This document shows positions 3,642-22,680 of a DNA stretch of 64,000 nt, piece after piece. The position numbers and the translations under genes are program-made. Below the pieces are notes generated by a model that was not told where the DNA came from, ran no database searches, and saw nothing but the letters and a program-made list of their open reading frames with translations. The stretch is from positions 1-64,000 of the forward strand of contig JAILPK010000020.1 of NCBI GenBank assembly GCA_024699495.1, in the 5' to 3' direction. The first letter of the stretch is position 1; each line of letters begins with the position of its first letter. This stretch comes from Bacteroidaceae bacterium. Lineage in GTDB: Bacteria; Bacteroidota; Bacteroidia; Bacteroidales; Bacteroidaceae.

Positions 3642-3778
3642 AGGAAAAACCCTAAAAACCAAGGGGAGAACCCCTATAAAATGTTCTATATGGTTGTTTT
3701 TACGTGGCAAAAGTAGGTATTCAGCGTCAGAAAAACAACAAAATCAACAAAAAACAAATTCAATTAAGAAAAATTGCC

Positions 3779-3786
3779 TATCTTTG
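3779..3786 (+). promoter_or_regulatory. -7 box of the fabD promoter
   Basis: TATCTTTG matches TAnnTTTG exactly and is followed by GC, as is common in this phylum. No good TTG sits 19-21 bp upstream; the region is AT-rich. It lies 58 bp before the fabD start and is divergent from the promoter near 3611. The rest of 3556-3843 is AT-rich sequence without a gene. Confidence 0.6.
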
Positions 3787-3843
3787 CAACAATTTTGGAT
3801 ATAACCCATAATAATATATTTAATTTTAAACAAAAATAAGAAG

Positions 3844-4740
3844 ATGAAAGCATTTGTTTTCCCCGGTCAGGGGGCACAATTTCCCGGGATGGGCAAAGAC
3901 CTCTACGACAACAACCCCACAGCCAAGTCGCTTTTTGACAAGGCAGACGAGATTCTCGGTTTCAAGATCACCGAAATAATGTTCAACGGGACTCCCGAAG
4001 AGCTGAAACAGACGAAGGTGACGCAGCCGGCTGTGTTCCTGCACTCGGTAATCACAGCCATCTGCATGGGAGAGGATTTCCAGGCAGACATGGTAGGCGG
4101 CCACTCTCTGGGCGAGTTCAGCGCTTTGGTAGCCTCGGGAGCATTGTCGTTTGACGAAGGACTGCGTCTGGTAAGTGCCCGTGCGCAGGCTATGCAGAAG
4201 GCCTGCGAGGCCAAGCCCTCGACGATGGCCGCAATCATCGGTCTCGACGACGAGACTGTGGAGCGCATCTGCAAGGAGGTGTCAGCCGAGGGCGGTGTGT
4301 GTGTGCCCGCCAATTACAACAACCCCGGGCAGCTGGTGATCAGTGGCACTGTGGAGGCAATCAATGCAGCCTGCGCAAAGCTGAAGGAAGCAGGTGCCAA
4401 GCGCGCTTTGCCGCTGGCAGTAGGCGGTGCATTCCACAGCCCTCTGATGCAGCCGGCCAAGGACGAGCTCCAGGCAGCCATCGAGGCCACGGAATTCCAC
4501 ACTCCCAAATGTCCTGTATATCAGAATGTGGACGGGAAGGCACACACCAACCCCGAAGAGATCAAGCAGAACCTCATAGCACAGCTGACTGCAAGCGTAC
4601 GCTGGACGCAGGAAGTGCAGAATATGATTGCAGCAGGCGCCACCGACTTCACAGAGTGCGGCCCCGGCAAGGCGCTTCAAGGCATGATAGCTAAGATTGC
4701 CAAGGGCAACGAGGCTGTTACGGCCCACGGCGTAGAATAA
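3844..4740 (+). CDS. fabD: Malonyl-CoA:ACP transacylase
   Basis: FabD moves the malonyl group from CoA to acyl carrier protein for fatty-acid elongation in the cytoplasm. The 298 residues match the family's usual length. Visible signatures are FPGQGAQFPGMG at 6-17, the nucleophile elbow GHSLG with Ser88, an Arg at 113 that binds the malonyl carboxylate, and His198 in GGAFHSPLM. It starts after a good -7 promoter box. The GH13 gene begins 2 bp after its stop, so the two are likely transcribed together although their pathways are unrelated. Confidence 0.97.
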   Translation: MKAFVFPGQGAQFPGMGKDLYDNNPTAKSLFDKADEILGFKITEIMFNGTPEELKQTKVTQPAVFLHSVITAICMGEDFQADMVGGHSLGEFSALVASGALSFDEGLRLVSARAQAMQKACEAKPSTMAAIIGLDDETVERICKEVSAEGGVCVPANYNNPGQLVISGTVEAINAACAKLKEAGAKRALPLAVGGAFHSPLMQPAKDELQAAIEATEFHTPKCPVYQNVDGKAHTNPEEIKQNLIAQLTASVRWTQEVQNMIAAGATDFTECGPGKALQGMIAKIAKGNEAVTAHGVE

Positions 4741-4742
4741 TA

Positions 4743-6500
4743 ATGAAAAGGCTTTTTCTCATAGTAAGCATGGCTGTCTGGGCTATGCATATGTACCCCC
4801 AATCAATGCAAAAAGACAAAATCATCATCTATCAGGTATTCACGCGTCTGTTTGGTTCGGATGCCAATGTCAACCAGCATAACGGCGACAAGGCCACCAA
4901 CGGCTGCGGAACGATGTCTGACTTCTCCGCGAAAGCTCTCGGCGAAATCAAGAAGCTTGGAGCAAACTATATCTGGCCAACGGGAATTATAGAGCATGCC
5001 ACTCAGACGGACTATTCTGCCTACGGCATTGCCCGCGACCATCACGCCATAGTGAAGGGGAAGGCCGGCAGCGCCTATGCCATAAAGGACTACTACGATG
5101 TGGACCCGGACATAGCGACGAGTGTGCCCGGGCGTATGAAGGAGTTTGAGCGCTTTCTGGCAAGGACCCACAAGGCCGGTCTGAAGATGATAATCGACTT
5201 CGTGTCCAACCATGTCGCGCGCCAATATCATTCTGACGCATGTCCGGAAGGCGTTGAGGACCTCGGCGCATCCGACGACAAGAACAAGGCTTTTTCTGCG
5301 GAGAATAATTTCTATTACGCCGTGGGAGAGCAGCTCTCTGCCGATTTCGACCTGCGTCAGGATGAGCAGGATGCTTATTATGAGTTCCCGGCCCGCGCCA
5401 CCGGTAATGACAACTTCTCATCCCACGCCCGCCGCGACGACTGGTATGAAACAGTAAAACTGAATTATGGCGTAGATTACGTCAACGGGCGTGCAGCGCA
5501 CTTCGCCCCCGTCCCCTCGACATGGCAGAAGATGCTTGACATCCTGAAATTCTGGGCATCGAAGGGCGTTGACGGTTTCCGCTGCGACATGGCGGAGATG
5601 GTTCCTGCGGAGTTCTGGGGCTGGGCTATACCCAAGGTGAAGGAGAATCACCCCGACTTACTGTTTATAGCCGAGGTATATAACCCCAACGAATACCGCA
5701 GATATATCAACGAAGGCAAATTCGACTATCTCTACGACAAGGTGGGGCTCTACGACACTCTGCGCGCTGTAACCTGCGGCAAGAGCAACGCCACCGCGAT
5801 AACAGGCTGCTGGCAGGCTGTGGAAGATATCCGCGACCACATGCTCAATTTCCTCGAGAACCACGATGAGCAGCGCATCGCCTCCGACTTCTTTGCCGGA
5901 GATGGCGAGCGCGGACGCGCCCCTATGCTGGTGTCAGCATGCCTCTGGCAGAACCCGATGATGGTTTATTTCGGTCAGGAGCTGGGCGAACGTGGTATGG
6001 ACGAGGAAGGATTCAGCGGGCGCGACGGGCGCACCACAATCTTCGACTACTGGACTGTATCCACAATCAGCCGATGGCGTAACAAAGGTAAGTTCGACGG
6101 GCGTAAGCTGACCCCACAAGAGACTGAGCTCCAAGCATTTTACTCGAGACTCTTAAACCTCTGCAATAACGAAAAGGCATTGAAGGCGGGCAAGTTTTTC
6201 GATTTGATGTATGTGAACCCGAGGAGCGGTCATTTCAACCCCAGCCGCCATTACGCCTTCGCACGGACGGCGGGCAAGGAGATGATAATCGTGGTTGCTA
6301 ATTTCGACGACACCCCGGTGGACATGCATCTGTCATTGCCCCGCCACATGTTCGAACTTTACAACATCGCGCCGGCAAGCCAGAAGAAAGCCACCGACCT
6401 GCTGACAGATAAGTCAATGACTATCGCATTCACACCGGACGAGCCCGTGGAGGTGAAGGTGCCAGCCCTCGGAGGCGTGATGCTCAAACTAAAACTCTAA
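4743..6500 (+). CDS. GH13-family alpha-amylase-type glycoside hydrolase, exported
   Basis: A 585-residue alpha-amylase-superfamily enzyme acting on alpha-glucans. The N-terminus (MKRLFLIVSMAVWAMHMYPQ) is a signal peptide, so a periplasmic or surface site is likely. The four GH13 regions are readable: DFVSNH at 152-157, GFRCDMAE with the nucleophile Asp282, the acid/base Glu311 in FIAE, and NHD at 373-375 with Asp375. The C-terminal 80 residues form the expected small beta domain. It follows fabD by 2 bp. I cannot assign substrate (starch, glycogen, maltodextrin) from sequence; no SusC/SusD pair is nearby. Confidence 0.9.
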   Translation: MKRLFLIVSMAVWAMHMYPQSMQKDKIIIYQVFTRLFGSDANVNQHNGDKATNGCGTMSDFSAKALGEIKKLGANYIWPTGIIEHATQTDYSAYGIARDHHAIVKGKAGSAYAIKDYYDVDPDIATSVPGRMKEFERFLARTHKAGLKMIIDFVSNHVARQYHSDACPEGVEDLGASDDKNKAFSAENNFYYAVGEQLSADFDLRQDEQDAYYEFPARATGNDNFSSHARRDDWYETVKLNYGVDYVNGRAAHFAPVPSTWQKMLDILKFWASKGVDGFRCDMAEMVPAEFWGWAIPKVKENHPDLLFIAEVYNPNEYRRYINEGKFDYLYDKVGLYDTLRAVTCGKSNATAITGCWQAVEDIRDHMLNFLENHDEQRIASDFFAGDGERGRAPMLVSACLWQNPMMVYFGQELGERGMDEEGFSGRDGRTTIFDYWTVSTISRWRNKGKFDGRKLTPQETELQAFYSRLLNLCNNEKALKAGKFFDLMYVNPRSGHFNPSRHYAFARTAGKEMIIVVANFDDTPVDMHLSLPRHMFELYNIAPASQKKATDLLTDKSMTIAFTPDEPVEVKVPALGGVMLKLKL

Positions 6501-6758
6501 GACCCTCAGGCAAAAGCCCTCGAAACAGGCCTTCAGGCAAAAGCCTCGAAACAGACCTTCAGGCAAAGCCTCGAAACAGACCTTCAGGCAAAGCCCTCGA
6601 AACAGGCCTTCAGGCAAAAGCCTCGAAACAGGCCCTCAGGCAAAAGCCTCGAAACAAACCCTCAGGCAAAAGCCTCGAAACAGACCTTCAGGCAAAGCCT
6701 CGAAACAGACCTTCAGGCAAAGCCTCGAAACAGACCCTCAGGCAAAGCCTCGAAACAT
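6501..6758. repeat. Ten tandem copies of a 25-27 bp unit
   Basis: The spacer between the amylase and the SLC13 transporter consists of ten head-to-tail copies of a unit whose core is CAGGCAAAGCCTCGAAACAG. Copies differ by A3/A4 after GGC, by T/C in CCTTCAGG or CCCTCAGG, and by an extra C in some. Each unit holds the small dyad AGGC-AAA-GCCT, so a transcript would carry ten small hairpins in a row. The block starts directly after the stop codon and ends 17 bp before the next start. No promoter is visible in it. Confidence 0.95.
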
Positions 6759-6775
6759 AAAAACAACAGACAGAC

Positions 6776-8434
6776 ATGTCCTTCTCAATAATATACGTAG
6801 CGCTAATCCTCGTGTTTATGCTGTTTGCATTGATGCGGGAATACCTGCGTCCGGGCCTTGTGCTTTTCACGGCAGTAGTCTTACTCCTCGTGGCTGGCAT
6901 CATCACCCCGGAAGAGGCTATAAAAGGCTTCTCAAACAAGGGCATGATAACCGTAGGATTGCTATATCTGGTCAGCGAGGGAGTGCGCAAGAGCGGCCTG
7001 CTGGAACGCATCGTATTCAGGATGCTCCCGAAGAAAAAGGCTAACATAACCAATGCAGGGCTCCGCTTCTACCCTATCGTCTCCTTCATCTCGGCATTCT
7101 TCAACAACACCCCGGTGGTTGTGATATTCGCCCCGATGATAAAGAACTGGGCACGGAAAATGAAGCTCCCGCCAACCAAATTCCTCATCCCGCTGTCTTA
7201 CGCCACAGTAATCGGCGGTATCTGCACGCTGATAGGCACAACCACGAACCTCGTTTTACATGGTATGCTTATCCAGGAGCATAAGGACGAGGTGACGGCA
7301 GCGGCCGACGGCGCCTCAGAGGGGATATTGATGCGCTTCGGAATAGACGGCATCCCGATGTTCGAACTGACCAAAGTGGGTGTGTTCATCGCGGTGGCCG
7401 GTCTGATTTATCTTATATTCTTCTCGCGCTATCTGCTGCCCGACAACCGCCATTCAGAAGAGGAGGTTGAAGACCTGGACATCGCTCCGGGCATGACCCG
7501 CCACGAGGTTCTGCTCGGCAACCGCTTCCCGGGCCTGGGCAAGACACTGCATGAATTTGACTTTTTCCGCCATTACGGAGCCCATGTGCGGGCCATCTGC
7601 AGGGGCGGCCGAGTGCTCGAGGGGGATTTCATGAACATGCGCATGACGCACGAGGATACGCTCATCGTGGATGCCGACGACTCCTTTATGAAGAGTTGGG
7701 GCGAAAGCCGCGTATTCTGGATGATCAACCGCGTCGGTGACTACGAGCCTCCGATGAGCAACAAGAAGCGTTGGCTGGCTCTGGTGCTTCTTATATTAAT
7801 GATTATAGGAGCCACAGTAGGTGAGTTAGGTCCGGTAAAAGAGTGGCTGGCAGCGCAGCCCTTTGTGCAGGAATACATGCCCGCCCTGAAGCTGGACATG
7901 TTCTTCTTCGTGTGCATAACGACAGTGATCATGGCTTGGACACGGCTGTTCTCCCCGCGGAAATACACCAAATACATGTCGTGGGATGTGCTCATAACCA
8001 TAGCATGCGCCTTCGCCATATCCACCGCTATGACCCACTCCGGCTTTGCCGACCTGATAGCCGGATACATCATATCCCTCACCGACATAGTGAAGGGGTC
8101 GGACTACGGAATATTCATCATCCTGGCTGCCCTGTTCCTGATTACCAATATCTTCACCGAACTCGTGACGAACAACGCAGCGGCGGCGCTGGCCTTCCCG
8201 CTGGCTCTGGCTGTGTCAGAAAGGCTGGACATGAACCCCATGCCCTTCGTGGTGTGCATCTGCTTTGCCGCCAGCGCCTCATTCAGCACTCCGATAGGCT
8301 ATCAGACGAATCTCATTGTGCAAGGAGTAGGCGGCTATAAATTCAAGGACTTCCTGAAGGTGGGCCTGCCCATGAATCTTATTGTTTTCATTCTCTCGGT
8401 GATTCTTATTCCGATATTTTATAATTTGATTTAG
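6776..8434 (+). CDS. SLC13/DASS-family permease with TrkA-C domain, probable sulfate transporter
   Basis: A 552-residue membrane protein with about 11-12 hydrophobic segments. The hydrophilic insert at residues 228-308 (from EEEVEDLDI to SWGESR) reads like an RCK/TrkA-C domain, as in the sulfur-responsive SLC13 branch. The motifs FFNNTPVVVIF and IGTTTNLV near residues 103-155, and their second-half counterparts ELVTNNAAAALAFPLA and STPIGYQTNLIV, are the paired substrate- and ion-binding hairpins of the family. It lies 8 bp upstream of cysC and heads the sulfate-activation cluster, so sulfate is the likely substrate; this is inference from context. Its 5' region is a tandem-repeat array. Confidence 0.88.
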   Translation: MSFSIIYVALILVFMLFALMREYLRPGLVLFTAVVLLLVAGIITPEEAIKGFSNKGMITVGLLYLVSEGVRKSGLLERIVFRMLPKKKANITNAGLRFYPIVSFISAFFNNTPVVVIFAPMIKNWARKMKLPPTKFLIPLSYATVIGGICTLIGTTTNLVLHGMLIQEHKDEVTAAADGASEGILMRFGIDGIPMFELTKVGVFIAVAGLIYLIFFSRYLLPDNRHSEEEVEDLDIAPGMTRHEVLLGNRFPGLGKTLHEFDFFRHYGAHVRAICRGGRVLEGDFMNMRMTHEDTLIVDADDSFMKSWGESRVFWMINRVGDYEPPMSNKKRWLALVLLILMIIGATVGELGPVKEWLAAQPFVQEYMPALKLDMFFFVCITTVIMAWTRLFSPRKYTKYMSWDVLITIACAFAISTAMTHSGFADLIAGYIISLTDIVKGSDYGIFIILAALFLITNIFTELVTNNAAAALAFPLALAVSERLDMNPMPFVVCICFAASASFSTPIGYQTNLIVQGVGGYKFKDFLKVGLPMNLIVFILSVILIPIFYNLI

Positions 8435-8442
8435 CCAACCCC

Positions 8443-9039
8443 ATGGACAACAATATTTATCCCATATATGACAAGATGCTCAGCCGCTCTGACAAAGAAC
8501 AGCTTCTCGGACAGAGAGGAGTGATGATATGGTTCACCGGACTGAGCGGCTCGGGGAAAAGCACGATAGCCCTGGGCGTGGAACGGGAGTTGCACAGCCG
8601 CGGCATCCTCTGCCGGATACTCGACGGCGACAATATCCGTTCGGGAATCAACAGGAATCTCGGATTCAGCGCCGGCGACCGCCATGAGAATATCCGGCGC
8701 ATCGCCGAAATCGGTAAGCTGTTTGTAGATACAGGCATAGTAACTCTCGCGGCCTTTGTCTCCCCCACGGAAGAATACAGGGCTCTGGCGCGGGATATAA
8801 TCGGAGAGGAGGACTTCAAGGAGGTATATGTATCCACCCCTCTGGAAGAATGTGAACGCCGGGATGTGAAGGGTCTGTATGCCCGCGCACGGCGCGGCGA
8901 AATCAATGACTTCACCGGAATCAGCGCACCCTTTGAAGTGCCATCCTCGCCGGCGCTGAGCCTCGACACCTCTGTGCTACCGCTGGAGGAGAGTGTCAGA
9001 AGAGTGGTCCAATTAATCACCGCCGACAGCAAAACATAG
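8443..9039 (+). CDS. cysC: Adenylylsulfate (APS) kinase
   Basis: CysC phosphorylates APS at the 3' position to PAPS, the sulfonate donor. The 198 residues fit the family. Visible are the P-loop GLSGSGKST at 33-41, the APS-binding stretch LDGDNIRSGINRNLGFS, the block DRHENIRRIAEIGKLF and the lid region near GLYARARRGEI. It is 8 bp downstream of the transporter and upstream of cysD, with a repeat-filled 366-bp gap between. No reductase genes are near, so the PAPS made here is most simply linked to the sulfotransferase at 15582. Confidence 0.96.
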   Translation: MDNNIYPIYDKMLSRSDKEQLLGQRGVMIWFTGLSGSGKSTIALGVERELHSRGILCRILDGDNIRSGINRNLGFSAGDRHENIRRIAEIGKLFVDTGIVTLAAFVSPTEEYRALARDIIGEEDFKEVYVSTPLEECERRDVKGLYARARRGEINDFTGISAPFEVPSSPALSLDTSVLPLEESVRRVVQLITADSKT

Positions 9040-9080
9040 CCGCCCACGGCAAAAACAAACCGCAGGACTGCTGACCGCAA

Positions 9081-9345
9081 CATCTGAAAGCATAAGACAT
9101 CTGAAAGACAAGGACCGCAAGCATAAGACATCTGAAAGCATAAGACATCCGAAAGCATAAGGCATCTGAAAGACAAGGACCGCAAGCATAAGGACATCTG
9201 AAAACATAAGGCATCTGAAAGCATAAGACATCCGAAAGATAAGGCCCGCAAGCATAAGGACATCTGAAAACATAAGACATCTGAAAACATAAGACATCTG
9301 AAAGCATAAGACATCTGAAAGCATAAGACATCTGAAAGACAGATA
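9081..9345. repeat. Thirteen copies of a 17-bp unit between cysC and cysD
   Basis: The unit is CATCTGAAAGCATAAGA. Thirteen starts of CATC(T/C)GAAA can be counted. Copies 2, 5 and 8 are lengthened to about 31-32 bp by the insertion GACAAGGACCGCAAG or a variant, giving a higher-order period of about 65 bp. Because 17 is not a multiple of three and the unit lacks stops on the minus strand, all three minus frames stay open; these are not genes. The rest of 9040-9405 (366 bp) is AT-rich and holds no promoter I can defend. Confidence 0.95.
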
Positions 9346-9405
9346 CATAGATATAATCAGAACATACATATATATATAAATAAGTAATAAACATCCATAA
9401 TCATA

Positions 9406-10314
9406 ATGACAGAATATCATCTTTCCCACCTTCAGGAACTCGAAGCCGAAAGCATACATATCATCCGTGAGGTGGCTGCTGAATTTGAGAACCCCGTGAT
9501 GCTCTACAGCATCGGCAAAGACAGCAGCGTAATGGTTCGTCTGGCTGAGAAGGCCTTTGCTCCGGGCAAAGTGCCATTCCCGCTAATGCATATCGACAGC
9601 AAATGGAAGTTCAAGGAAATGATTCAGTTCCGAGATGAGTATGCAAAAAAATACGGTTGGAATCTGATTGTGGAATCGAACATGGAAGCATTCAACGCCG
9701 GGGTCGGCCCATTCACCCACGGCTCGAAGGTGCACACCGACCTGATGAAGACCAAAGCCCTGCTCGACGCGCTAAACAAATACAAGTTCGACGCAGCCTT
9801 CGGAGGAGCCCGCAGAGATGAGGAAAAGAGCCGCGCCAAGGAACGCATATTCTCCTTCCGCGACCAGTTCCAGCAGTGGGACCCAAAGAACCAGCGTCCC
9901 GAACTCTGGGATATATATAATGCACGCATCCACAAGGGTGAGAGCATCCGCGTCTTTCCCCTATCCAACTGGACCGAACTGGATATCTGGCAATACATCA
10001 GGCTGGAGAAAATTCCCATTGTGCCTCTGTATTTTGCAAAAGAACGCCCCTGCGTGGAGATAGACGGCAACATCATAATGGCCGACGATGAGCGTCTGCC
10101 CGAGCAATACCGGCCACTGATCAAGCCCCGCATGGTGCGCTTCCGCACACTTGGCTGCTGGCCTCTGACCGGAGCTGTGGAAAGCAGCGCCACGACGATT
10201 GAGGAAATCGTGGAGGAGACGATGACCACGCACAAGAGTGAGCGCACGACACGCGTTATAGACTTCGACCAGGAGGCTTCAATGGAACAAAAGAAACGAG
10301 AGGGATATTTTTAG
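9406..10314 (+). CDS. cysD: Sulfate adenylyltransferase subunit 2 (ATP sulfurylase small subunit)
   Basis: CysD forms APS from ATP and sulfate, powered by GTP hydrolysis on CysN. The 302 residues match the family. The PP-loop variant [13 protein letters not shown] sits at about residues 35-47, followed by [33 protein letters not shown] and the C-terminal [16 protein letters not shown] with its metal-independent family pattern. The start ATG follows the repeat array by 60 bp. Unusually, its normal partner cysN is not next; a helicase gene starts 3 bp after its stop. Confidence 0.97.
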
Positions 10315-10317
10315 ACT

Positions 10318-13300
10318 ATGACAGATTCTTCCGCCGATATTGCCGCCTTGCAGGTGGATGAGAGACAACTCACCCGACAGGCTCTGTGGGAACGCAAGCT
10401 GCTTGACTTCAGCCTGCGCAACAGCTTGTTGAACACGCGCTTCGGGAAACGCGCCCTGCTGCTGGATATCCATGACGTAGCTCATCTTGAAGACCGTCTG
10501 CAGATGGGTGACGGCTATAGCATTGCCCCGAAGGAGAGTTCAGAAGAAAGCAATAAAACCACGGACGCCGCCCCGGGGAGCCGGAATGAATCCCATATTC
10601 TCCCCACCACTCTCTCGCTATCGGAGCTGAAGCCGGTGGTTACCAACCTTTACCGCGGCGCGCGCACAGCGATGGAAGAGAATGGCGCCAACGCTCTGTT
10701 CATAGCCATCGGCATGCTGAAATGGTTTGTTACGGAAAAGAGTGACCAGCCACGTCTCGCGCCCATTCTTCTGCTGCCCGTGAATATAATCCGCAACGGG
10801 GCGGGCTTTCTTGTCAGGATGCGGGATGAGGAGACAATACTCAACATCACACTGATTGAGTTCCTGCGTCAGCAATACAAACTAAGCATCCCCGAGATTG
10901 AGGTGCTGCCTACAGACGACAACGGGGTGAATGTGTCCGGAATCTTTGACACAATCCGCAAAATCATTTCAGACCAGCCCCGTTGGGAGGTCATGGATGA
11001 GAGTGTTCTGGGCTTGTTCTCATTCAACAAGTTTGTGATGTGGAATGATATTCATGCAAATGCCGACCGCCTGCTGGAGAGCTCTGTAATAAGAAGTCTT
11101 GTCGAGCGCCGCCTGGCAGTGGAGGACAATGAAGCAGACATCGACGTTCACAAATTTGATTTACATGAAAAGCCGGATGCAGTGGCCACCCCCATCAGCG
11201 TGGATTCATCACAGCTCGAGGCTGTAATCGAGAGTGCGTCTGACAAGAGTTTCATACTCTACGGCCCGCCGGGAACAGGTAAGTCACAGACTATTACAAA
11301 TATTATTGCGAACGCGCTGTACAAAGGGAAGCGAGTATTATTTGTGGCCGAGAAGATGGCCGCCTTGCAGGTGGTGCAGAAACGGCTCGCAAAAATCGGA
11401 CTCGACCCATTCTGTCTGGAGCTGCATTCAAACAAAGTCACCAAAACTCATTTTCTGGAACAGCTGCAGCAGGCTCTCGACGTGACCCACGGGCATGTAA
11501 GCGAGAATTTCAGGCAGCGCTCGCAAGAACTGTATTCAGTAAGGAAACGCCTCAACGACTACATGCAGGCGGTTCATCATGCAGAGCCCGGAAGCCTCTC
11601 TCTGTTCAGTTGCATAGAGAGATATCTGACCCTGCCGGAGGTTCCGGCCATGGACTTCCCGATTGAACAGGCATGCAGCAAAAATCTTGCAGACCTGGAA
11701 AAGACAGTGAAATCCATTCAGGAGCTGGATGCCATCTTCAAGCTTGTGGGGCATCCGCATAATCACCCGCTCTCAGGCTTGTCGCCGTCGGACGACCACA
11801 GAGAAAGCCTCTCCAAGCTGGAGAATCTGCTGAGGCAGATGGAAGCAGCGCAAAAAAGCGGCTTTACAGGCAGTCCGGCAGAGCTGACTGCTGAATGGAG
11901 AGCAATCCAGAAGAAATGGTTTATACCGCGATTCTTTGCGACCAATTCGTTTCTGAAACGCATAAAAGCCATAGATTCCTCACTGACGAAGAGCGACATA
12001 CCCGCATTCATCGACAGACTGAAGCAGACGGACGGCACAAGCTACGCCACCTGGCTTGAGAAAAAAGATGACTGGCGAGAATGGTTCAGATGGTCCTCCA
12101 TGCGTGCAGAATGGATAGAGGATGGTTGGGAGCCAGTGGTGAATTATATCGAGGCTGGCCACAACACGTCGGACACGGCATGTGCTCTGCAGAGAGTAAT
12201 CCTCAAGGAATGGGCGCTGAAGACTATAGACGGGAATGACGCCTTACGCAGTTTCAGCGGGGCAGCATTCGAGGACGTCATAGCGCGCTATAAGCAGTTG
12301 ACCGAACATTTCCAACTGCTCACACAGAAAGAACTCTACTGCCGTCTGGCAGGCCGCATCCCATCAATAAGCATCGAGGCTGCGACCGGTTCGGAGGTGA
12401 ACATTCTGAAACGCAACATCGCCAACGGCGGGCGCGGGACAAGCATTCGCCGCATAATAGAGCAGATCCCGAACCTGATGCCAAAGCTCTGTCCCTGCAT
12501 GCTGATGAGCCCTATATCTGTGGCTCAGTTTATAGACCTGCGGTGGCCGAAGTTCGACCTCGTAATCTTTGACGAGGCCTCACAGATGCCTACATCAGAA
12601 GCAGTCGGGGCGATAGGCCGCGGCAAGTCGCTAATAGTGGTCGGCGACAACAAGCAGATGCCTCCGACCAGTTTCTTCAACACGCAGCAGGTGGATGACG
12701 AAGAGGCTGAATTCGACGACCTCGACAGCATTCTCGACGACTGCCAGGCGCTATCTATGCAAGCCCACTATCTGGCATTCCACTACCGCTCCAAGCATGA
12801 GTCGCTGATAGCCTTCTCCAATCAGGAATACTATGACGGCCGGCTCTTTACCTTCCCCTCTTCAGACGACCGCCTGCAGAAGGTCTCCCTGGTGCAGACC
12901 GAAGGAGTCTATGACAAGGGCGGCAAGCGCAGCAACCAGGCAGAGGCCGACGCTGTGGTGAAGGAGATAATACGCCGTCTGTCGGACGACGAACTGTCAA
13001 AGAGAAGCATCGGCGTGGTGGCATTCTCCATGGCCCAACAGAATCTCATTGAGGATGTGCTTATGGAAACGCTAAGCGACAAGCCGGAACTCGAGGCCCG
13101 CGCATTTCAATGTGAGGAGCCCATATTCATCAAGAATCTGGAGAATGTGCAGGGAGATGAGCGTGACATCATCTTATTCAGCGTAGGCTACGGCCCCGAC
13201 AAGGATGGGAATGTAAGCATGAATTTCGGCCCGCTCAACAACCAAGGCGGAGAGCGTCGCCTGAATGTGGCAGTCACCCGCGCCCGGTATGAGATGATTG

Positions 13301-14094
13301 TATTCTCCACTCTGCGTTCGGATCAGATTGATCTCAAACGCAGTCAGGCTCTCGGCGTGGAAGGGCTGAAGAAATTCCTGAAATATGCTGAGAACGGCTC
13401 TCTGGACATCCAGACAGACAAAAGCAAGGGCGCAGGCGACAATGATGACTTCCCGATAGCGGAAAGCATCGCTTCAGAGCTCAGGAAGCTGGGGTACGAT
13501 GCGACGCTTGGTGTGGGGCGCTCTCTGTTCAAGGTGGATGTGGCCATAGTAGATCCCGAAGATTCTGAAAGATACAAGCTGGGCATACTGATAGACAGCC
13601 GCTCGCGAAATGAGGTAAAGATTGCACGCGACCGCGAACTGACGCAACCGTCGGTGTTGCAGAATTTGGGTTGGCGTGTGATGCGAGTGTGGAGTGTTGA
13701 CTGGTTCCAGCATCGCCAGCGGGTTATAGACAGCATTGTCCAGGCTTTGTCGGGTGATGCGCCAGCCGCTGCCAATCCGCTCAGTCTGAAAGCGCCCCAG
13801 ATTGTCCAGGACAAGGTTACGACCTCCAAGCCGCCTGCTCTCAAGGGGAAAAGAGAGGGAAAACGTGACATCGACGAACTGCATGAGGTGGAGATTGACC
13901 GGATAGTGTATCAGGTGGTGAAGGAGCAGGTGGCGCTACCGCTTGATGCCATCAAACTGGCTGCCAACCGCATGCTGGGCTATCAGCGCCGGACTCCACG
14001 CATAGACAATGCCATCTCGCTCAGCGTGGGCAGACTGATAGCCAGCCACCTGATAATTAAAGAGGGCGATAACTATAAACTGAAAGATTTATAA
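10318..14094 (+). CDS. DUF4011-type SF1 helicase with nuclease-fold domain and DUF3320-like tail
   Basis: A 1258-residue multidomain protein. The N-terminus ([19 protein letters not shown]) is the DUF4011 signature. Walker A is GPPGTGKSQ near residue 318, followed by helicase motif Ia; DEASQMP near 750 is the DExx box, [10 protein letters not shown] is motif III, and [16 protein letters not shown] near 980 is motif VI. These are typical of Upf1-like SF1 helicases. Residues about 1044-1145 fit the REase_MTES_1575 nuclease fold, ending in [14 protein letters not shown], but the expected Glu and Tyr-His pair are replaced (ILIDS, RN). The last 75 residues read as a DUF3320-like winged helix. The gene is inserted between cysD and cysN with 3 bp and 14 bp gaps. 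Relatives include suspected anti-phage or DNA-repair proteins; its role here is unknown. Confidence 0.85.
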
Positions 14095-14108
14095 AATCTA
14101 TTTTCAAA

Positions 14109-15536
14109 ATGGATAAGAAACTTGACATAAAAGCATATCTGGATGCTGATGAGAAGAAAGACCTGCTGCGCCTGCTTACGGCCGGAAGTGTCGACGACGG
14201 TAAAAGCACGCTCATAGGACGTCTGCTCTTCGACTCCAAGAAAATATACGATGATCAGCTGACCGCCTTGGAGCGCGACAGCAAGCGCGTGGGAAATGCC
14301 GGAGACAGCATCGATTATGCCCTGCTGCTCGACGGGCTCAAAGCAGAGCGCGAGGAAGGTATCACTATTGATGTAGCCTATCGCTACTTCTCCACGAACA
14401 AGCGCAAATTCATCATCGCAGACACCCCGGGGCATGAGCAATATACCCGCAATATGATAACGGGCGGTAGCACCGCCAATCTGGCCATTATCCTCATCGA
14501 CGCACGCAAGGGGGTTATCACCCAGACGCGGCGCCACACATTCCTCGTTTCTCTGCTCGGGATAAAGCATATAGTCCTGGCGGTGAATAAAATGGATCTC
14601 GTGGGATTTGACCAGAATGTGTTCAACAATATAGTTACGGAATACCGCAAACTCACCGAACACCTGGGTATTGAGGATGTGACCTGCTTCCCGTTGTCCG
14701 CCCGAGAGGGGGATAATGTGGTTGAGAAGAGCGCCAACACCACGTGGTATGAAGGCCCTACCCTACTGGATTTTCTCGAGACCGTGCCCATTCACGCCGA
14801 CCGCAACTTCAACGATTTCCGCTTCCCAGTGCAGTATGTCCTGCGGCCGGACCTCAACTTCCGCGGTTTCTGCGGTAAGATGGCCAGTGGCGTAGTAACG
14901 GTCGGAGATGAGGTCATGGCCCTGCCGTCGTTGAAACGCAGCCATGTCAAGAGTATTGTAACCTACGAGGGCGATATCAGGGAAGCGTTCCCGCCACAAT
15001 CGGTAACAATAACGCTTGAGGACGAGATTGACATCAGCCGCGGCGAAATGATCGTCCATCCCGACAACGTTCCCTGCATCGGCCGCCACTTCACCTCAAT
15101 GCTGGTTTGGATGGACGAAGAACCGATGGACACAGGCAAGCAGTTCTTCCTGAAACACAACACCAACACCACGAGGGCAACCATAGCATCAATACGCCAC
15201 CGGGTTGATGTGAACACTCTGGAGGAGAAAGAAGGAAAGCCTTTCTGTCTCAATGAAATTGGGCAGGTGGATATCCTCACAGCCAAGACCCTCTTCTTCG
15301 ACGCCTATGCCAAAAACCGCCAGACTGGTGCCTTCATCCTTATCGACCCGATAACGAATAACACCTCTGCCGTAGGAATGATTCTCGGGCCTCTTGATGA
15401 AAAATCTCTGGAGAATGACATCGTACCCACGATTGATATGTCTGCCTTAGGCATCTCTCCGGAGCATTTCGAGGCACTTGAGACAGCAGTAAAAGACCTT
15501 GCGCGCCAGGGACTGGAGGTCAGACTGATAAAATAA
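14109..15536 (+). CDS. cysN: Sulfate adenylyltransferase subunit 1 (GTPase subunit)
   Basis: CysN is the translation-factor-like GTPase that drives CysD. Its 475 residues show the P-loop GSVDDGKST at 26-34, [12 protein letters not shown] as the G3 region, NKMDL as G4 and an EF-Tu-like second and third domain from about residue 230. It is a stand-alone CysN; the APS kinase is a separate gene, not fused. It lies 14 bp after the helicase gene and 45 bp before the sulfotransferase, so it belongs to the same transcription unit. Confidence 0.97.
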
Positions 15537-15581
15537 GACAGTATAAACACATATAAAATATAAATAAAAAGAAAGGCAGAA

Positions 15582-16709
15582 ATGCCTGTCTGTAAGAATA
15601 TGGGACTATTGAAGTTTGAAAATCTGCCTGTCAACACAATGGTTGGAGCCGACTGGAAAACATTTAACCAGCTCTGTGCCGATAACCATTACGACAAAGG
15701 TTACCAAACAAAATACTATCTGACAAAAAGCATCTGCCGACTGCTTTCGCTGCTTACACCCATCCAGGAGCGCAGATATCAGAAATTGCTGGCGGAAAAA
15801 CCGTTGGAGCATGACCCGCTCTTCATCTTAGGGCATTGGCGTTCGGGCACCACATTTGTTCACAATATCTTTGCCCAGGACGAACATTTTGCCCACACAA
15901 CAACCTACCAGACGGTGTTCCCGCATCTGATGATGTTCGGGCAGCCTTTCTTCAAGTTCATGATGAATATCTTCATCCCAAGCCACCGGCCGACCGACGG
16001 GATGGAACTGACTCCCGATTTACCGCAGGAGGAGGAATTTGCGCTTACGAACACCACGCCGTATTCATACTATGATTTCTGGTTCTTCCCAAAGCGGATG
16101 CTGGAATTCTGCGACAGATACCTCACCTTCGAGAAAATCACGCCCGACGAGGAACAGGCATATAAAGAGGCGTTTATGAAAATCGTAAAGATATCAATGT
16201 GGAACACAGGAGGCACACAGTATCTCTCGAAGAATCCGCCTCACACCGGCCACGTCAAGGCTCTCGTGGAGATGTTCCCCAACGCCAAGTTCATCTATCT
16301 GATGAGGAATCCATACACTGTGTTTGAGAGTACACGCTCATTCTTCACCCAGACCATCGCACCGCTGAAACTGCAGGATGCCAGCGATGACGAGATAGAA
16401 ATGAACGCTATCCAAGTCTATCCCCGACTATATAAAGCTTACCAAGAGCAGAAACAAATCATCCCCAAGGGCAATCTCTACGAGGTGAAATTCGAGGATT
16501 TTGAACATGATGCCTATTCCACCACGAAAGATATATATTCCCGACTGCAACTGCCCTGCTGGGAGGAGAGTGAACCCGCAATACGCGCTTACATCGAAAG
16601 CAAACGCGGCTACAAGAAAAACAAATATGAATACAAGCCACGCACCATTCAGCTCGTAAATGAGCATTGGGGACAAGCGATTGACGATTGGGGCTATGAG
16701 AGAATGTAA
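15582..16709 (+). CDS. PAPS-dependent sulfotransferase
   Basis: A 375-residue cytoplasmic sulfotransferase of the Sulfotransfer_3 type. The 5'-phosphosulfate loop GHWRSGTT is at 84-91 and the 3'-phosphate motif RNPYTVFESTRSFF at 242-255, with Arg242 and Ser250 in the expected places. No signal peptide or membrane span is present. A second start at 15600 (MGLLKFENLP) is possible; the first has AGAAAGG ahead of it. Together with the PAPS-making genes just upstream, it resembles the Bacteroides sterol and steroid sulfonation cluster whose sulfotransferase is BT_0416. The acceptor here is not known. Confidence 0.9.
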   Translation: MPVCKNMGLLKFENLPVNTMVGADWKTFNQLCADNHYDKGYQTKYYLTKSICRLLSLLTPIQERRYQKLLAEKPLEHDPLFILGHWRSGTTFVHNIFAQDEHFAHTTTYQTVFPHLMMFGQPFFKFMMNIFIPSHRPTDGMELTPDLPQEEEFALTNTTPYSYYDFWFFPKRMLEFCDRYLTFEKITPDEEQAYKEAFMKIVKISMWNTGGTQYLSKNPPHTGHVKALVEMFPNAKFIYLMRNPYTVFESTRSFFTQTIAPLKLQDASDDEIEMNAIQVYPRLYKAYQEQKQIIPKGNLYEVKFEDFEHDAYSTTKDIYSRLQLPCWEESEPAIRAYIESKRGYKKNKYEYKPRTIQLVNEHWGQAIDDWGYERM

Positions 16710-16743
16710 AAGAAGAATGACTCTTATTCCATCACAAGAAAAA

Positions 16744-17400
16744 ATGAAATCATTTATCACCTTACTACTTCTGTTTTGCATGAACATAAACGGAGTAAAA
16801 GCAGCAGATCCGCTCACCGGAAAGACTATGCTGGTGTTCGGAGACAGCTATGTTAAGAACCACCGCTGCCCTGTGGAAGAGACTTGGCATTACCAAGTGG
16901 CGGCTTCTCATGGCATGAAATATATCAATGCGGGCCGCAACGGCTCTTCGGTGGCTTTCGACCGCACACGCGACGGATTCGGGCCTAACATGATTACGCG
17001 CCTGAAGGATTTGCCTGCCGAAGTGGATTATTTCATTATCATCGCTGGACACAATGATGCAGACAAGGTGAAAAACAGCGCGGACTCGCTGCTCATGTTC
17101 CGAGACTCGCTCGACCGCCTCTGCCAGATGCTCGTGGAGCGCTACCCCGCTGCCCGCATAGCATGGGTCACGCCGTGGAATGTTGACAGGCCGGGATTTG
17201 CACAAGTAATCGCCACAATCCGCGAGGTGTGCGCAAACCACTCAATTCCTGTGCTTGACGCAGCCCGCGAAAGCGGCATCCACGTGCGCAGCATCCCATT
17301 CCGCAAGCGCTACTTCCAAAACGGTGACACTGCCCATCTGAATGCTTCGGGACACCGGCTGATACTCAACTGGGCCGACCGTTTCATCACCAGCCTATAA
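16744..17400 (+). CDS. Exported SGNH/GDSL-family hydrolase
   Basis: A 218-residue protein with a signal peptide (MKSFITLLLLFCMNINGVKA). The start at 16744 is chosen over an upstream in-frame ATG at 16660 because it gives a clean signal peptide and avoids overlap with the sulfotransferase. The SGNH blocks are visible: FGDSY with the catalytic Ser, GRNGSS, AGHND, and DTAHLNASGH with the Asp-His pair. Members are esterases, lipases or carbohydrate deacetylases. It follows the sulfotransferase by 34 bp and may act on the sulfonated product or be an unrelated rider; substrate unknown. Confidence 0.85.
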   Translation: MKSFITLLLLFCMNINGVKAADPLTGKTMLVFGDSYVKNHRCPVEETWHYQVAASHGMKYINAGRNGSSVAFDRTRDGFGPNMITRLKDLPAEVDYFIIIAGHNDADKVKNSADSLLMFRDSLDRLCQMLVERYPAARIAWVTPWNVDRPGFAQVIATIREVCANHSIPVLDAARESGIHVRSIPFRKRYFQNGDTAHLNASGHRLILNWADRFITSL

Positions 17401-17448
17401 CTGCTAAAATTTACAACATTTTACATAACAATTTAAACATTAGACAAC

Positions 17449-19191
17449 ATGGATCTGGAACTTCTAAAGCAATGTGAGGCTAAGGCACAGGAATGGCTGG
17501 CCTCAGACGTCTATGACGCAGAAACCAAGACTGAAGTTAAGGCACTGCTCGAAGCCGAGGACAAAAGCGCACTCATCGACGCGTTCTATCAAAGTTTGGA
17601 ATTCGGAACTGGAGGCTTGCGCGGTATTATGGGCGTTGGCACCAACCGAATGAATATCTATATTGTGGGGCAGGCAACGCAGGGGTTTGCGAACTATATC
17701 AACAAGGCATTCCCCGGCCGCAAGGACCTGAGCGTAGTAGTAGGCCACGACTGCCGTAACCACGGCCGACAGTTTGCAGAGACCGTTGCCAACATCTTCT
17801 CCGCAAACGGAATCAAGGTATATCTCTTCGAGAGTCTGCGTCCCACGCCTGAAATATCATTTGCAATACGTCAGTTGGGAGCACAGGCCGGTGTGAACGT
17901 AACGGCAAGCCACAACCCGCGTGAATACAACGGCTACAAAGCTTACTGGGAGGATGGCGCACAAGTGCTCGCTCCGCACGACAAGGGTATTATTGATGAG
18001 GTGAATGCCGTAAAAATCGAGGATGTGAAGTTCGAGCCTAACAAAGACCTCATCCAAATCATCGGCGGCGAGATGGACTGGGATTATCTCCAGGCTGTCA
18101 AGGAAGCTATGGTTGACCAGGAAGTAATAATGCGGCAGAAGGACCTCAACATCGTCTATACCCCACTGCATGGCACTGGCCGCGTAATAATCCCCGAAGC
18201 ACTGCGCTCATGGGGCTTCCAAAACATCCACGTTGTACCAGAGCAGATGGTCATCGACGGCAACTTCCCCACTGTGGTCAGCCCCAACCCCGAAAACTCT
18301 GAGGCTATGACCTTAGGTATGAATCTCGGCACCAAGCTCAATGCAGATCTCGTAATTGCCAGCGACCCCGATGCAGACCGCCTGGCTATCGTATGCCGTA
18401 ATGCCAAGGGTGAATGGGAAATACTCAATGGCAACCAGACTTGCATGATGTTTGCCTGGTATATCATCGCCAACAAGAAGAAACTCGGTCAGCTGAAAGG
18501 CAACGAGTTCCTCGTGAAAACAATCGTTACCACCGAACTTATCAAGCGCATAGCAGACAAGAATGGTGTTGAGATGAAGGACTGCTACACCGGCTTCAAG
18601 TGGATTGCTGCTCTCATCCGCGAGAACGAGGGCGTAAAGAAATATATCGGAGGCGGCGAAGAGAGCTTCGGTTTCCTGCCATTTGACAAAGTGCGCGACA
18701 AGGATAGCCCAGCAAGCATCTGTCTCATCTGTGAGATAGCCGCCTGGGCAAAGGATAACGGCAAGACTCTCTATGATCTGCTCATGGATATCTATCTTGA
18801 ATACGGATTCTCTTACAATCACACTGTGAATGTTGTCAAACCCGGAAAGAGCGGAGCAGACGAAATCAAGCAGATGATGGTTGACCTGCGGAAGAATCCT
18901 CCGACTACACTCGGTGGCAGCAAGGTAATCTGTGTGAAGGACTACCAGGAGCTGACGCAGACCGACGGCGAGGGCAACGTGACGAAACTGGATATGCCGG
19001 CTACAAGCAATGTGTTGCAGTGGTTCACCGCTGCAGGCGACAAAATCAGCGTACGTCCTTCTGGCACAGAACCGAAGATTAAATTCTATATGGAAATCGC
19101 AGGCGAGATGGGCTGCCCGAAATGCTACATTTCCGCATGTGACGAGGCCCGCAAAAAAGCAGACGCTATCTGCCAGGAGCTGGGTATCTGA
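17449..19191 (+). CDS. Phosphoglucomutase/phosphomannomutase family enzyme
   Basis: A 580-residue alpha-D-phosphohexomutase that moves phosphate between the 1 and 6 positions of a hexose phosphate. All four family loops are seen: the phosphoserine loop TASHNPREYNGYK with Ser154, the Mg loop SDPDADR at 305-311, the sugar loop GGGEESFG at 401-408 and the phosphate loop RPSGTEPK at 536-543. The length suits the PgcA-like glucose-1,6-bisphosphate-type group. It is separated from the SGNH gene by a 48-bp AT-rich spacer. Whether glucose or mannose is preferred cannot be told from sequence. Confidence 0.93.
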   Translation: MDLELLKQCEAKAQEWLASDVYDAETKTEVKALLEAEDKSALIDAFYQSLEFGTGGLRGIMGVGTNRMNIYIVGQATQGFANYINKAFPGRKDLSVVVGHDCRNHGRQFAETVANIFSANGIKVYLFESLRPTPEISFAIRQLGAQAGVNVTASHNPREYNGYKAYWEDGAQVLAPHDKGIIDEVNAVKIEDVKFEPNKDLIQIIGGEMDWDYLQAVKEAMVDQEVIMRQKDLNIVYTPLHGTGRVIIPEALRSWGFQNIHVVPEQMVIDGNFPTVVSPNPENSEAMTLGMNLGTKLNADLVIASDPDADRLAIVCRNAKGEWEILNGNQTCMMFAWYIIANKKKLGQLKGNEFLVKTIVTTELIKRIADKNGVEMKDCYTGFKWIAALIRENEGVKKYIGGGEESFGFLPFDKVRDKDSPASICLICEIAAWAKDNGKTLYDLLMDIYLEYGFSYNHTVNVVKPGKSGADEIKQMMVDLRKNPPTTLGGSKVICVKDYQELTQTDGEGNVTKLDMPATSNVLQWFTAAGDKISVRPSGTEPKIKFYMEIAGEMGCPKCYISACDEARKKADAICQELGI

Positions 19192-19241
19192 ACCTGTATT
19201 AAGATTCCATAATTAGAATTCCTGTTGAAAATAATCTTAGC

Positions 19242-20027
19242 ATGATGAAAAAAGTCTGGGCATGCCTCTGCCAAGGCGACATCCTATTAATGAGAGAAGG
19301 CGGCAACGCCTTCTCTCTTCCCTTTGGAGACGAACCGCCGATGGCACTAAAGCCCTGGAATATGGTTACACAAATCAGATTGGAAGAGCAGATGCTTATG
19401 GTTGTCCGACTTGATGCGCCTGTCGTTGACATCAAGGGGCTGGTGATGATGAATCTGCGTGATTCCTTTAGTGTACTTTCAGAGCAAGAATACCGGTTTG
19501 CAGGCAAGGCAGCAGAACTTATTTACTGGGACCAGAACAGCAAATACTGCGGCTGTTGCGGTGCTCCGATGAAATTCGAAACGGAGATTTCGAAGCGCTG
19601 CACCAACTGCGGAAAGGAACTGTGGCCGCAATTGGCTACGGCAGTTATAGTGCGTATCACGAAGGATGACTCGCCTGAGCCAAGCATTCTACTTGTTCAT
19701 GCAAAGAACTTCCGACGTCCATATTATGGTCTTGTTGCAGGCTTCGTGGAAACAGGAGAAACTCTGGAAGAAGCCGTTCGACGCGAAGTGCGCGAAGAGA
19801 CAGGCATAGAAATCACGAACCTGCGCTACTTTGCCTCGCAACCATGGCCCTACCCTTGCGGTCTGATGGTAGGATTTACGGCCACCTATGTGTCGGGAGA
19901 AATACATCTGCAACAGTCTGAATTGTCACTTGGAGGATGGTTTACGCGTGACAATATTCCAGCTATACCTGGAAAATCTTCAATCGCACGCCAACTGATT
20001 GACAACTGGCTGAAGCGGGAAGAATAA
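19242..20027 (+). CDS. nudC: NAD(H) diphosphatase, Nudix family
   Basis: NudC cleaves NAD(H) to NMN(H) and AMP and removes NAD caps from RNA in the families studied. The 261 residues carry a four-Cys zinc ribbon (Cys103, Cys106, Cys120, Cys123), a complete Nudix box from Gly167 to Ile189 (GFVETGE then REVREETGI) and SQPWPYP at 199-205, the NADH-pyrophosphatase hallmark. It lies 50 bp after the hexomutase gene. A repeat array follows its stop. Confidence 0.95.
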   Translation: MMKKVWACLCQGDILLMREGGNAFSLPFGDEPPMALKPWNMVTQIRLEEQMLMVVRLDAPVVDIKGLVMMNLRDSFSVLSEQEYRFAGKAAELIYWDQNSKYCGCCGAPMKFETEISKRCTNCGKELWPQLATAVIVRITKDDSPEPSILLVHAKNFRRPYYGLVAGFVETGETLEEAVRREVREETGIEITNLRYFASQPWPYPCGLMVGFTATYVSGEIHLQQSELSLGGWFTRDNIPAIPGKSSIARQLIDNWLKREE

Positions 20028-20099
20028 GAACTGAAGCTGCATTATAGATGTCAGCTAAACGTTGAGAAACATAGCTCTAAGCATCTATAACACTTGCTG

Positions 20100-20317
20100 A
20101 CAAGATTGCAGATTAAAGCAGACTGGATTGCAGATTAAAGCAGACAAGATTTCAGATTAACGCAGACTGGATTACTGAGTAAAGAAGACAAGATTACTGA
20201 GTAAAGCAGACTGGATTGCAGATTTAAGCAGGCTGGATTGCAGATTAACGCAAACTGGATTGCATAGTAACGCAGGCTGGATTACAGATTAAATCAGACT
20301 GGATTGCAGATTAATAG
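20100..20317. repeat. Ten tandem copies of an exact 22-bp period
   Basis: Ten units of 22 bp run head to tail; the core is GATTGCAGATTAAAGCAG preceded by ACTG or ACAA. The ACTG and ACAA forms alternate over the first five copies. Variants replace GCAGATTA with ACTGAGTA or GCATAGTA. The last unit includes the stop codon of the minus-strand esterase at 20311, so the array grew up to the end of that gene. Before it, TTATAGATG (20042-20050) and CATCTATAA (20082-20090) form a dyad without a T run. The 20028-20310 spacer separates two convergent genes and holds no other gene. Confidence 0.95.
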
Positions 20318-21237
20318 CCAAAGTATCTCTTGCAATATATACTCAAGGTGCTGTCGTATTTTTCACTACAATCCTTGTCATTCATTAAGAGATGGCCTGA
20401 ATTTGGGTAAACAATCAACGAATAGGGTTTATTCATACTGTCATACTTTTCTGCCAAGGCTTTATAATGAGCTGGATTTATGAGCTTGTCCTTGTCTCCA
20501 TAAGCGAAGATGGCCGGAAGGGCCGTGCTGTCAGAGATATAGGTTATAGGTGAAGCACTCATCTTTATGCTGTCGAGCCATTGTTTGTCGTTGTGCTTGG
20601 AATTTATGTATTTTCCTGTGCAACAGAACACGAATTTCTTTATATCCTCACTTGTGGCATTTGTGTCATTAGGGAAAAGTAAACAAAAGTCTGCCGGCCC
20701 CACCTTGATAGCCTCGAATTTCAGCGGCAACGAATTGCGATAATTATATGCAAACATCATAGCCAGATGTCCGCCTGCCGACGTTCCGGCAATCGCTATC
20801 TGACATATATGCGCACCATGGTCAGCTGAAAACTGAACAATATGTTCCAGACAATGACCTATTTCGGATAGCATCGTAGGAAGAGACACATTCTCTTCTT
20901 TGAGCAGACTGTAATTCATCGTTGCTGTGGCATAGCCTTTCTGCACCCAGGTGTAACAATCTCTGTGGTGCTCATCCTTGTCTCCCCCTATCCAAGAGCC
21001 GCCATGGACATACAAGATGAGAGCCAGACTATCTATCTCTGACGCATCTGCAGGTAAATAAAGATCATAATTATTGTGTGGATTTTCACCATAACAGATG
21101 TCAAGATACCTATTACCATAACTGTCATTCCACTTTGGCTTATTCAAATATACCAAGATGCCTGCTGCAAGGCAGATGATTAGTAGAAAGCCTGCCATAC
21201 AGGCACAACCTTTCTTAATACAGCCTTTCTTGTTCAT
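20311..21237 (-). CDS. Membrane-anchored alpha/beta hydrolase (carboxylesterase-like)
   Basis: A 308-residue esterase or lipase fold. Residues 15-31 form a hydrophobic anchor or uncleaved signal after a Lys/Cys-rich start. The oxyanion motif HGGSW is at 78-82, the nucleophile elbow GTSAG at 151-155 with Ser153, the acid in GDKD at 247-250 and His282 in SGHLL. This order is that of the BD-FAE/acetyl-esterase group. It lies 78 bp downstream of the CE15-like gene on the same strand, so a shared role in removing ester groups from plant glycans is possible but unproven. Confidence 0.8.
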   Translation of the reverse strand: MNKKGCIKKGCACMAGFLLIICLAAGILVYLNKPKWNDSYGNRYLDICYGENPHNNYDLYLPADASEIDSLALILYVHGGSWIGGDKDEHHRDCYTWVQKGYATATMNYSLLKEENVSLPTMLSEIGHCLEHIVQFSADHGAHICQIAIAGTSAGGHLAMMFAYNYRNSLPLKFEAIKVGPADFCLLFPNDTNATSEDIKKFVFCCTGKYINSKHNDKQWLDSIKMSASPITYISDSTALPAIFAYGDKDKLINPAHYKALAEKYDSMNKPYSLIVYPNSGHLLMNDKDCSEKYDSTLSIYCKRYFGY

Positions 21238-21315
21238 ATAATATAAGTCATTAAAAAGGAAAATATCGATGGGCTGAGAAATATGCTAAAATAATTATTG
21301 GGGGATTCTTAATTT

Positions 21316-22461: not shown

Positions 22462-22516
22462 TGTCCGGTAGAAAAAAATCTATATTAATTATCCTTTTGC
22501 TGAATCTTTAGATTCT

Positions 22517-22680
22517 CCAGGTGGACTAGGTGGACTAGGTATTCTAGGAATTTCTAGGAATTTCTAGGTATTCCTAGGTATTTCTAGGAATTTCTAGGTA
22601 TTCCTAGGTATTCTAGATATTCTAGGTATTCTAGATATTCTAGGTATTCTTGGTATTCTTGGTATTCAAGATATTCTGCT
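22517..22680. repeat. TTCTAGGTATT / TTTCTAGGAA short tandem repeats
   Basis: About 165 bp of alternating 9-11 bp words, TTCTAGGTA and TTTCTAGGAA with CCTAGG variants, drifting to TTCTTGGTA at the right end. CCTAGG and TCTAGA are palindromic, so the block is full of small dyads. It lies just upstream of the CE15-like gene within the 640-bp spacer 22462-23101. Bases 22690-22880 are AT-rich with no gene I can support. Confidence 0.9.

Follow-up and report, generated by a model that had tools for sequence, protein, structure and literature searches.

The window analysed here, a stretch of 64,000 nucleotides from a Bacteroidaceae bacterium (positions 1 to 64,000 of the forward strand of contig JAILPK010000020.1, assembly GCA_024699495.1), carries a gene for a DUF4011-type superfamily 1 (SF1) helicase between cysD and cysN, which encode the two subunits of ATP sulfurylase. 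We consider it likely that this gene encodes a short version, specific to its lineage, of the ProA/PDC-S37 defence-type helicases, that it was inserted once between cysD and cysN, and that it rides in the 3'-phosphoadenosine 5'-phosphosulfate (PAPS)/sulfotransferase operon of a subclade of a rumen genus. Sulfate activation is probably the address of the helicase, not its partner. The helicases of this subclade, from 27 genomes of the genus, are called the clade below.

Position and domains of the helicase

The three genes of the junction are arranged as follows.

9406..10314, + strand: cysD, ATP sulfurylase small subunit (open reading frame (ORF) and profile match)
10318..14094, + strand: DUF4011 - SF1 helicase - Vsr-like nuclease - winged helix protein of 1258 amino acids (aa), a short ProA/PDC-S37-like form
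14109..15536, + strand: cysN, ATP sulfurylase GTPase subunit (ORF and profile match)

The original prediction had placed the helicase between cysD and cysN on one strand, with gaps of 3 and 14 bp, and this was borne out by the ORFs and by reading the junctions in the sequence. The cysD stop codon (10312-10314) is followed after 3 bp by the helicase ATG at 10318, and the helicase stop codon (14092-14094) after 14 bp by the cysN ATG at 14109. CysD scored 495.5 bits against TIGR02039 (cut-off 396.6) and CysN 622.3 bits against TIGR02034 (cut-off 336.1); with both curated cut-offs exceeded and the reading frames intact, the pair was identified as a CysDN ATP sulfurylase. The helicase was the sole match of its kind in its own draft genome. 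Judging from the gaps and the strand alone, cysD, the helicase and cysN are probably on one transcript. A Bacteroidetes-type promoter pattern had nine exact matches in the window against 1.33 expected and none on either strand from 3743 to 22708, a gap that, in so weak a test, would fit a long transcript.

The following parts were recognised in the helicase protein.

10396..10866, + strand: DUF4011 domain, residues 27-183 (Pfam match)
11200..11793, + strand: helicase part 1, AAA_11, residues 295-492, with Walker A at 316 (Pfam and alignment)
12733..13308, + strand: helicase part 2, AAA_12, residues 806-997 (Pfam and alignment)
13462..13749, + strand: Vsr-like REase_MTES_1575 domain, residues 1049-1144 (Pfam and predicted structure)
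13594..13611, + strand: rewritten nuclease loop, residues 1093-1098, D-S-R-S-R-N (alignment)
13855..14091, + strand: C-terminal winged-helix domain, residues 1180-1258 (predicted structure)

Among PDB sequences, the SF1 part matched Sen1, SMUBP-2 and UPF1. The helicase motifs were intact in 27/27 clade genomes, although in G109 the NK of the GDNKQMPP motif is replaced by PR. The domain set of ProA, namely DUF4011, an SF1 helicase, an MTES_1575 nuclease and a C-terminal winged helix, was found in full by Pfam and, for the winged helix, in the predicted model.

Relationship to known defence proteins

The helicase belongs to a family that is already known (ProA/PDC-S37, related to Hhe), and the suggestion that it is a candidate for genome defence has gained from this nearness to a known anti-phage family. 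The window protein matched the anti-phage protein ProA strongly over the helicase and the nuclease; it differs in having no N-terminal transglutaminase-like domain, in the rewritten nuclease loop and in its location between cysD and cysN. Its best PADLOC match was PDC-S37, a single-gene phage defence candidate (1044.8 bits), over three matched stretches, the window protein being shorter than the 1550-position model and PDC-S37 itself being a candidate system. Two stretches matched Hhe (DUF4011 domain-containing anti-phage protein, NF042953), best over the second helicase part and the nuclease, at 709.1 bits, which is under the cut-off of 2000. From its family alone, the helicase would be a defence protein with an anti-phage role.

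A survey of 2013, in the part available to us, described giant HEPN-transglutaminase-SF1 helicase-Vsr-winged helix-turn-helix proteins (MTES_1575 type), which were predicted to need no modification partner for their action on invading DNA (PMC3710099). The window protein likewise joins an SF1 helicase, a Vsr-type nuclease and a winged helix in one chain; unlike the giants as described in that part, it has no HEPN match and no transglutaminase-like domain (PMC3710099). By description, a DUF4011 gene flanking cDHS1 of Pseudomonas aeruginosa is also large and occupies a fixed core-genome position; according to the available part of that report it borders a defence hotspot, whereas the window's gene sits in a metabolic operon (PMC10250203). 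Separately, a DUF3320 protein of the helicase family was seen in Bacteroides finegoldii, where its neighbours on the two sides are rpsA and a gene for a reverse transcriptase (L194:4801-11890). That record is called a plasmid, also holds glutamine synthetase and may be a chromosomal piece.

N-terminal domain and nuclease loop

In 43 of the 57 distant relatives, 358-422 residues with conserved Cys, His and Asp precede DUF4011 in the alignment. Within the clade, an N-terminal transglutaminase-like domain was found in G107 only. In Foldseek, parts of this domain matched transglutaminases and UNC119-like beta folds (best E value 2.8e-4), and when it was searched by tblastn against the clade loci and the window (E ≤ 0.1), only G107 itself and a weak G011 match over the last 57 residues were returned.

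In Vsr, residues of the loop corresponding to residues 1093-1098 take part in catalysis. The loop D-G-x-x-Y was invariant in 55/55 distant relatives covering it and was kept in 5/5 genus relatives outside the clade. It was changed in all 24 clade rows that were aligned: Y was replaced by R in 24, G was kept in 4, and T1102 was replaced by I in 23. The Y was absent in 27/27 clade genomes, G107 having W and retaining G. Since G107, in which the N-terminal domain is present, has W for Y, the loop had probably already changed when the domain was lost.

These changes, together with a nuclease fold that is still predicted and constrained, are what would be expected if the protein had been repurposed as a non-cleaving form, that is, a helicase-only block or a repair/replication factor. 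We regard such a form as unlikely, because the acidic positions 1074 and 1093 are retained in 24/24 clade rows and constraint on the domain is close to that on DUF4011, so that some catalysis may remain, and because the patchy presence of the gene is more defence-like than housekeeping-like.

Recurrence between cysD and cysN

The genus was sampled with 139 genomes, all of them drafts. A cysD match (E ≤ 1e-3) was found in 98 of them and a cysN match (E ≤ 1e-100) also in 98, and the two were on the same contig in 94. The helicase lay between them in 21 of these 94 genomes; the other 73 had no helicase and a gap of 8-701 bp. The two genes were on separate contigs in three genomes (G028, G102 and G120), G073 had cysD alone and G053 cysN alone. 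G073 adds a 22nd case, in which the contig (L089) ends within cysN. The arrangement, which might have been a peculiarity of one strain or an assembly error, is therefore not single-strain, and its recurrence across genomes from different studies, as told from the record titles, speaks against a single misassembly. By coordinates, the helicase was co-directional with cysD and cysN in 22/22. Leaving the window's genome aside, ATG-based gaps in 19 of the remaining 21 were 10-245 bp from cysD to the helicase and 13-128 bp from the helicase to cysN.

Outside the genus, none of the 53 genomes of the family sample with both genes on one contig had a gap large enough for the helicase. Among 80 named loci with relatives, 19 had cysD and/or cysN beside the helicase, and 4 near and 57 distant loci did not (flanks of up to 8 kb; matches below 45% identity dropped). 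Five further genomes of the genus (G049, G066, G070, G041 and G063) hold outside-clade relatives at other sites, where the stretches retrieved contained no cys gene, so the helicase family overall is not bound to cysD-cysN; G041, G063 and G070 have, in addition, cysD-cysN with no helicase between. The close relatives G034, G018 and G111 have cysD-cysN alone. In G028 (L143 and L144), cysD and cysN have other neighbours, and the ORF before cysN looks TonB-type receptor-like by eye. G152, of another genus, has a 472-aa ORF (MBOAT-like by eye) and a 316-aa ORF between cysD and cysN (L191:4088-6726), which is an independent interruption of the pair.

Helicases in genomes without sulfate genes

The original prediction had raised a possible link between sulfate activation and the helicase. 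Such a functional coupling would mean that the helicase needs adenosine 5'-phosphosulfate (APS), PAPS, 3'-phosphoadenosine 5'-phosphate (PAP) or contact with CysD/CysN, as it might in order to make a sulfur-based modification or to sense nucleotide pools, and hence holds its seat in the operon. The site and strand, identical in 22/22 cysD-cysN cases, 20 of which, the window included, were measured and had gaps of 3-245 bp, agree with it, as does the occupation of this site by the deepest branches of the clade. However, five relatives in which neither cysD nor cysN was matched hold the helicase downstream of a fabD and an amylase gene. In the window the same two genes are the upstream anchors of the locus, named from orthologues by a domain scan on three of them; the remaining features of the locus are listed with them.

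3844..4740, + strand: fabD-type acyl transferase gene, upstream anchor (Acyl_transf_1 in three orthologues, and synteny)
4743..6500, + strand: alpha-amylase family gene, upstream anchor (Alpha-amylase in three orthologues, and synteny)
6776..8434, + strand: CitMHS/DASS-type anion transporter gene (ORF and domain match)
8443..9039, + strand: cysC, APS kinase (profile matches)
9080..9338, no strand: tandem repeat array of 17/66-bp units between cysC and cysD
15582..16709, + strand: sulfotransferase gene, Sulfotransfer_3 (domain match)

The order in G129, G023, G047 and G075 was fabD-amylase-helicase, the amylase and helicase genes being 23-281 bp apart, and that in G109 was fabD-amylase-634-aa gene-carAB-helicase, the 634-aa gene having weak glutamine-amidotransferase matches. 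The G109 helicase (L178:6768-17217) comes after a 1521-aa carbamoyl-phosphate synthase fusion, again among metabolic genes. In G060, the amylase is followed by a carAB-like gene, CitMHS, cysC, cysD, the helicase and cysN; because a carAB-like gene there stands ahead of CitMHS-cysC-cysD-helicase-cysN, G109 may be a further case of cys loss. None of the five draft genomes gave a cysD match (E ≤ 1e-3) or a cysN match (E ≤ 1e-100). Furthermore, PF01507 (PAPS reductase/CysD family) was empty at E ≤ 1e-15 in four of the five, and G129 had a single divergent member (66 bits). Within the flanks examined, cysD or cysN at at least 45% identity was seen in 0/57 distant loci, and purifying selection on the helicase persists between the cys-less G023 and G047, with a ratio of nonsynonymous to synonymous substitution rates (dN/dS) of 0.105.

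For DNA phosphorothioation (Dnd/Ssp), a PP-loop protein of the DndC/SspD type would presumably fall in PF01507; in the window's draft genome (86% complete) the single match at E ≤ 1e-15 was CysD itself. CysD is not the biochemical equivalent of DndC, according to the part of the source available (PMC10853773), which also argues against coupling through a sulfur modification. Taken together, these observations do not favour the proposed link, and we regard functional coupling as very unlikely.

Selection on the helicase

The helicase is under purifying selection: dN/dS was 0.05-0.14 in 7/7 examined pairs with a synonymous distance (dS) below 1.6. When the parts of the protein were pooled over nine overlapping pairs, a descriptive measure as the pairs share genomes, dN/dS was 0.033 in helicase part 2, 0.071 in DUF4011 and in the middle, 0.081 in the nuclease, 0.099 in helicase part 1, 0.194 in the winged helix and 0.22-0.24 in the linkers and the variable insert, the linkers by themselves lying at 0.22-0.23. 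A neutral insertion, the other option of the original prediction, in which a passenger tolerated by the operon is heading to decay, can appeal to a junction that accepts other genes (G152), to the helicase-less close kin and to the split cysD and cysN of G028, but it misfits a gene with these ratios, with motifs in 27/27 and with a presence where its neighbours are gone, and we give it hardly any credence.

Phylogeny and order of events

The helicase tree comprised all 27 members of the clade together with 11 helicases taken from the 57 distant relatives. Its deepest branches within the clade were G107 and then G020 with G130, all three located in cysD-cysN. The amylase-helicase genomes, which had been grouped by gene order before the tree was built, needed three state changes in it (G129; G023 with G047; G075). 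In quick trees, forcing these genomes together was rejected (approximately unbiased test, p-AU 7.9e-6), and so was forcing the cysD-cysN rows together (p-AU 3.2e-16). In a second tree of 43 rows, with five other genus relatives added, the 27 clade members came together with 99% in the Shimodaira-Hasegawa-like approximate likelihood ratio test (SH-aLRT), and the three state changes persisted. Most likely, a single insertion at the cysD-cysN junction occurred in the ancestor of the subclade and was followed mostly by inheritance. On the simplest reading of the trees, the sulfate genes would then have been lost three times, perhaps four with G109.

A tree of fabD and amylase from 36 genomes, with G137 placed by fabD alone (its amylase frame stops early), gave groups largely as in the helicase tree, with one clear conflict, the window. 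In a sulfate-gene tree, the window stood beside G030, G108, G081, G094, G125 and G132 (SH-aLRT 96), which suggests that its operon and helicase arrived together.

Recombination around the helicase

The species pair G081/G094 has a recombination tract over cysC-cysD-helicase-cysN. The dS between the two was 0.58-1.07 in fabD, amylase, CitMHS and the sulfotransferase gene, and 0.23 in cysC, 0.15 in cysD, 0.10 in the helicase and 0.28 in cysN. In 300-column windows of the alignment, identity in the tract was mostly 92-99%, although it fell to 52-83% where there were gaps and close to the right end, and most coding windows outside it were at 73-85%.

Other observations on the locus

By gene content, the Bacteroides cluster Bt_0411-Bt_0416 is similar to the window's locus, with sulfate import, PAPS genes and then a sulfotransferase; unlike in the window, no helicase is named for that cluster in the part of the source available (PMC9417993). 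Several of the intervals that separate large ORFs are occupied by long tandem repeat arrays (6500-6757, 9080-9338, 20099-20314, 22535-22677 and 46894-47132). The 17-bp unit of the 9080-9338 array had nine matches with up to one mismatch in the draft genome, all at that array, which can also be read on the minus strand as an open frame of 148 aa with repetitive sequence (9013-9459, - strand), probably a by-product of the repeat.

Discussion

Several points weigh against a short ProA-type helicase that entered cysD-cysN once and was mostly inherited. The window protein scores 1375.2 bits against the ProA model NF058533, under the curated cut-off of 1500 (1375 vs 1500); two relatives, L062 and L073, score 1390.9 and 1444.9 bits, and G107 passes the cut-off with 1780. 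The other 14 of the 57 distant relatives have 0-149 residues before DUF4011, some being cut or of unsure start, so the clade is not alone in lacking the N-terminal domain. G109, a long branch, fell inside the clade in the first tree and was unresolved at its base with G107 in the second, which casts some doubt on the ancestral site. If the operon was regained by recombination around the helicase, there could be fewer than three losses. The window's fabD-amylase pairs with the helicase-less G034 and its helicase with G125/G132, and because these groupings conflict, strict vertical descent fails for the window. The five cys-less drafts are incomplete, at 82, 80, 88, 73 and 87%, so that only their joint absence weighs (by our arithmetic, incompleteness would miss the pair in all five about 1.5 times in 10,000 if independent), and cysN was searched at E ≤ 1e-100 only. 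Few pairs were examined for recombination, with one clear tract, and outside that tract some fabD windows reached 88-93% and one sulfotransferase window 92%.

As for the mode of action, the family and the anatomy of the protein suggest that the winged helix and DUF4011 would load the SF1 motor onto foreign or abnormal DNA, which the three parts would bind and remodel. The motor would halt replication of this DNA whether or not the altered Vsr-like domain also cleaves it; cutting by that domain may be weak, different in kind or absent. The operon would supply expression and homologous arms for exchange, and no substrate.

We also propose, tentatively and with considerable doubt, that the helicase has become a domesticated, operon-borne immune protein. 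It would have shed a protease-like domain, its Vsr-like nuclease would now act differently or clamp DNA (loop Y to R, still constrained), and it would enjoy steady expression from a core metabolic operon, in place of a defence island, and pass between species as a cassette via homologous recombination in cysD and cysN. If true, this would be a route by which a defence gene reaches quasi-core status without a mobile element.

For the defence-type helicase probably inserted once between cysD and cysN, the distribution itself is of consequence: the gene lies inside the operon of a two-subunit enzyme in 22 draft genomes, each of one species, and at the same locus where the operon is gone. It could escape surveys in which defence genes are recognised by the company of other defence genes. 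The clade also forms a natural series, with the long form in G107, the short form elsewhere and the altered loop throughout, which may help to tell which parts of a ProA-type protein immunity needs.

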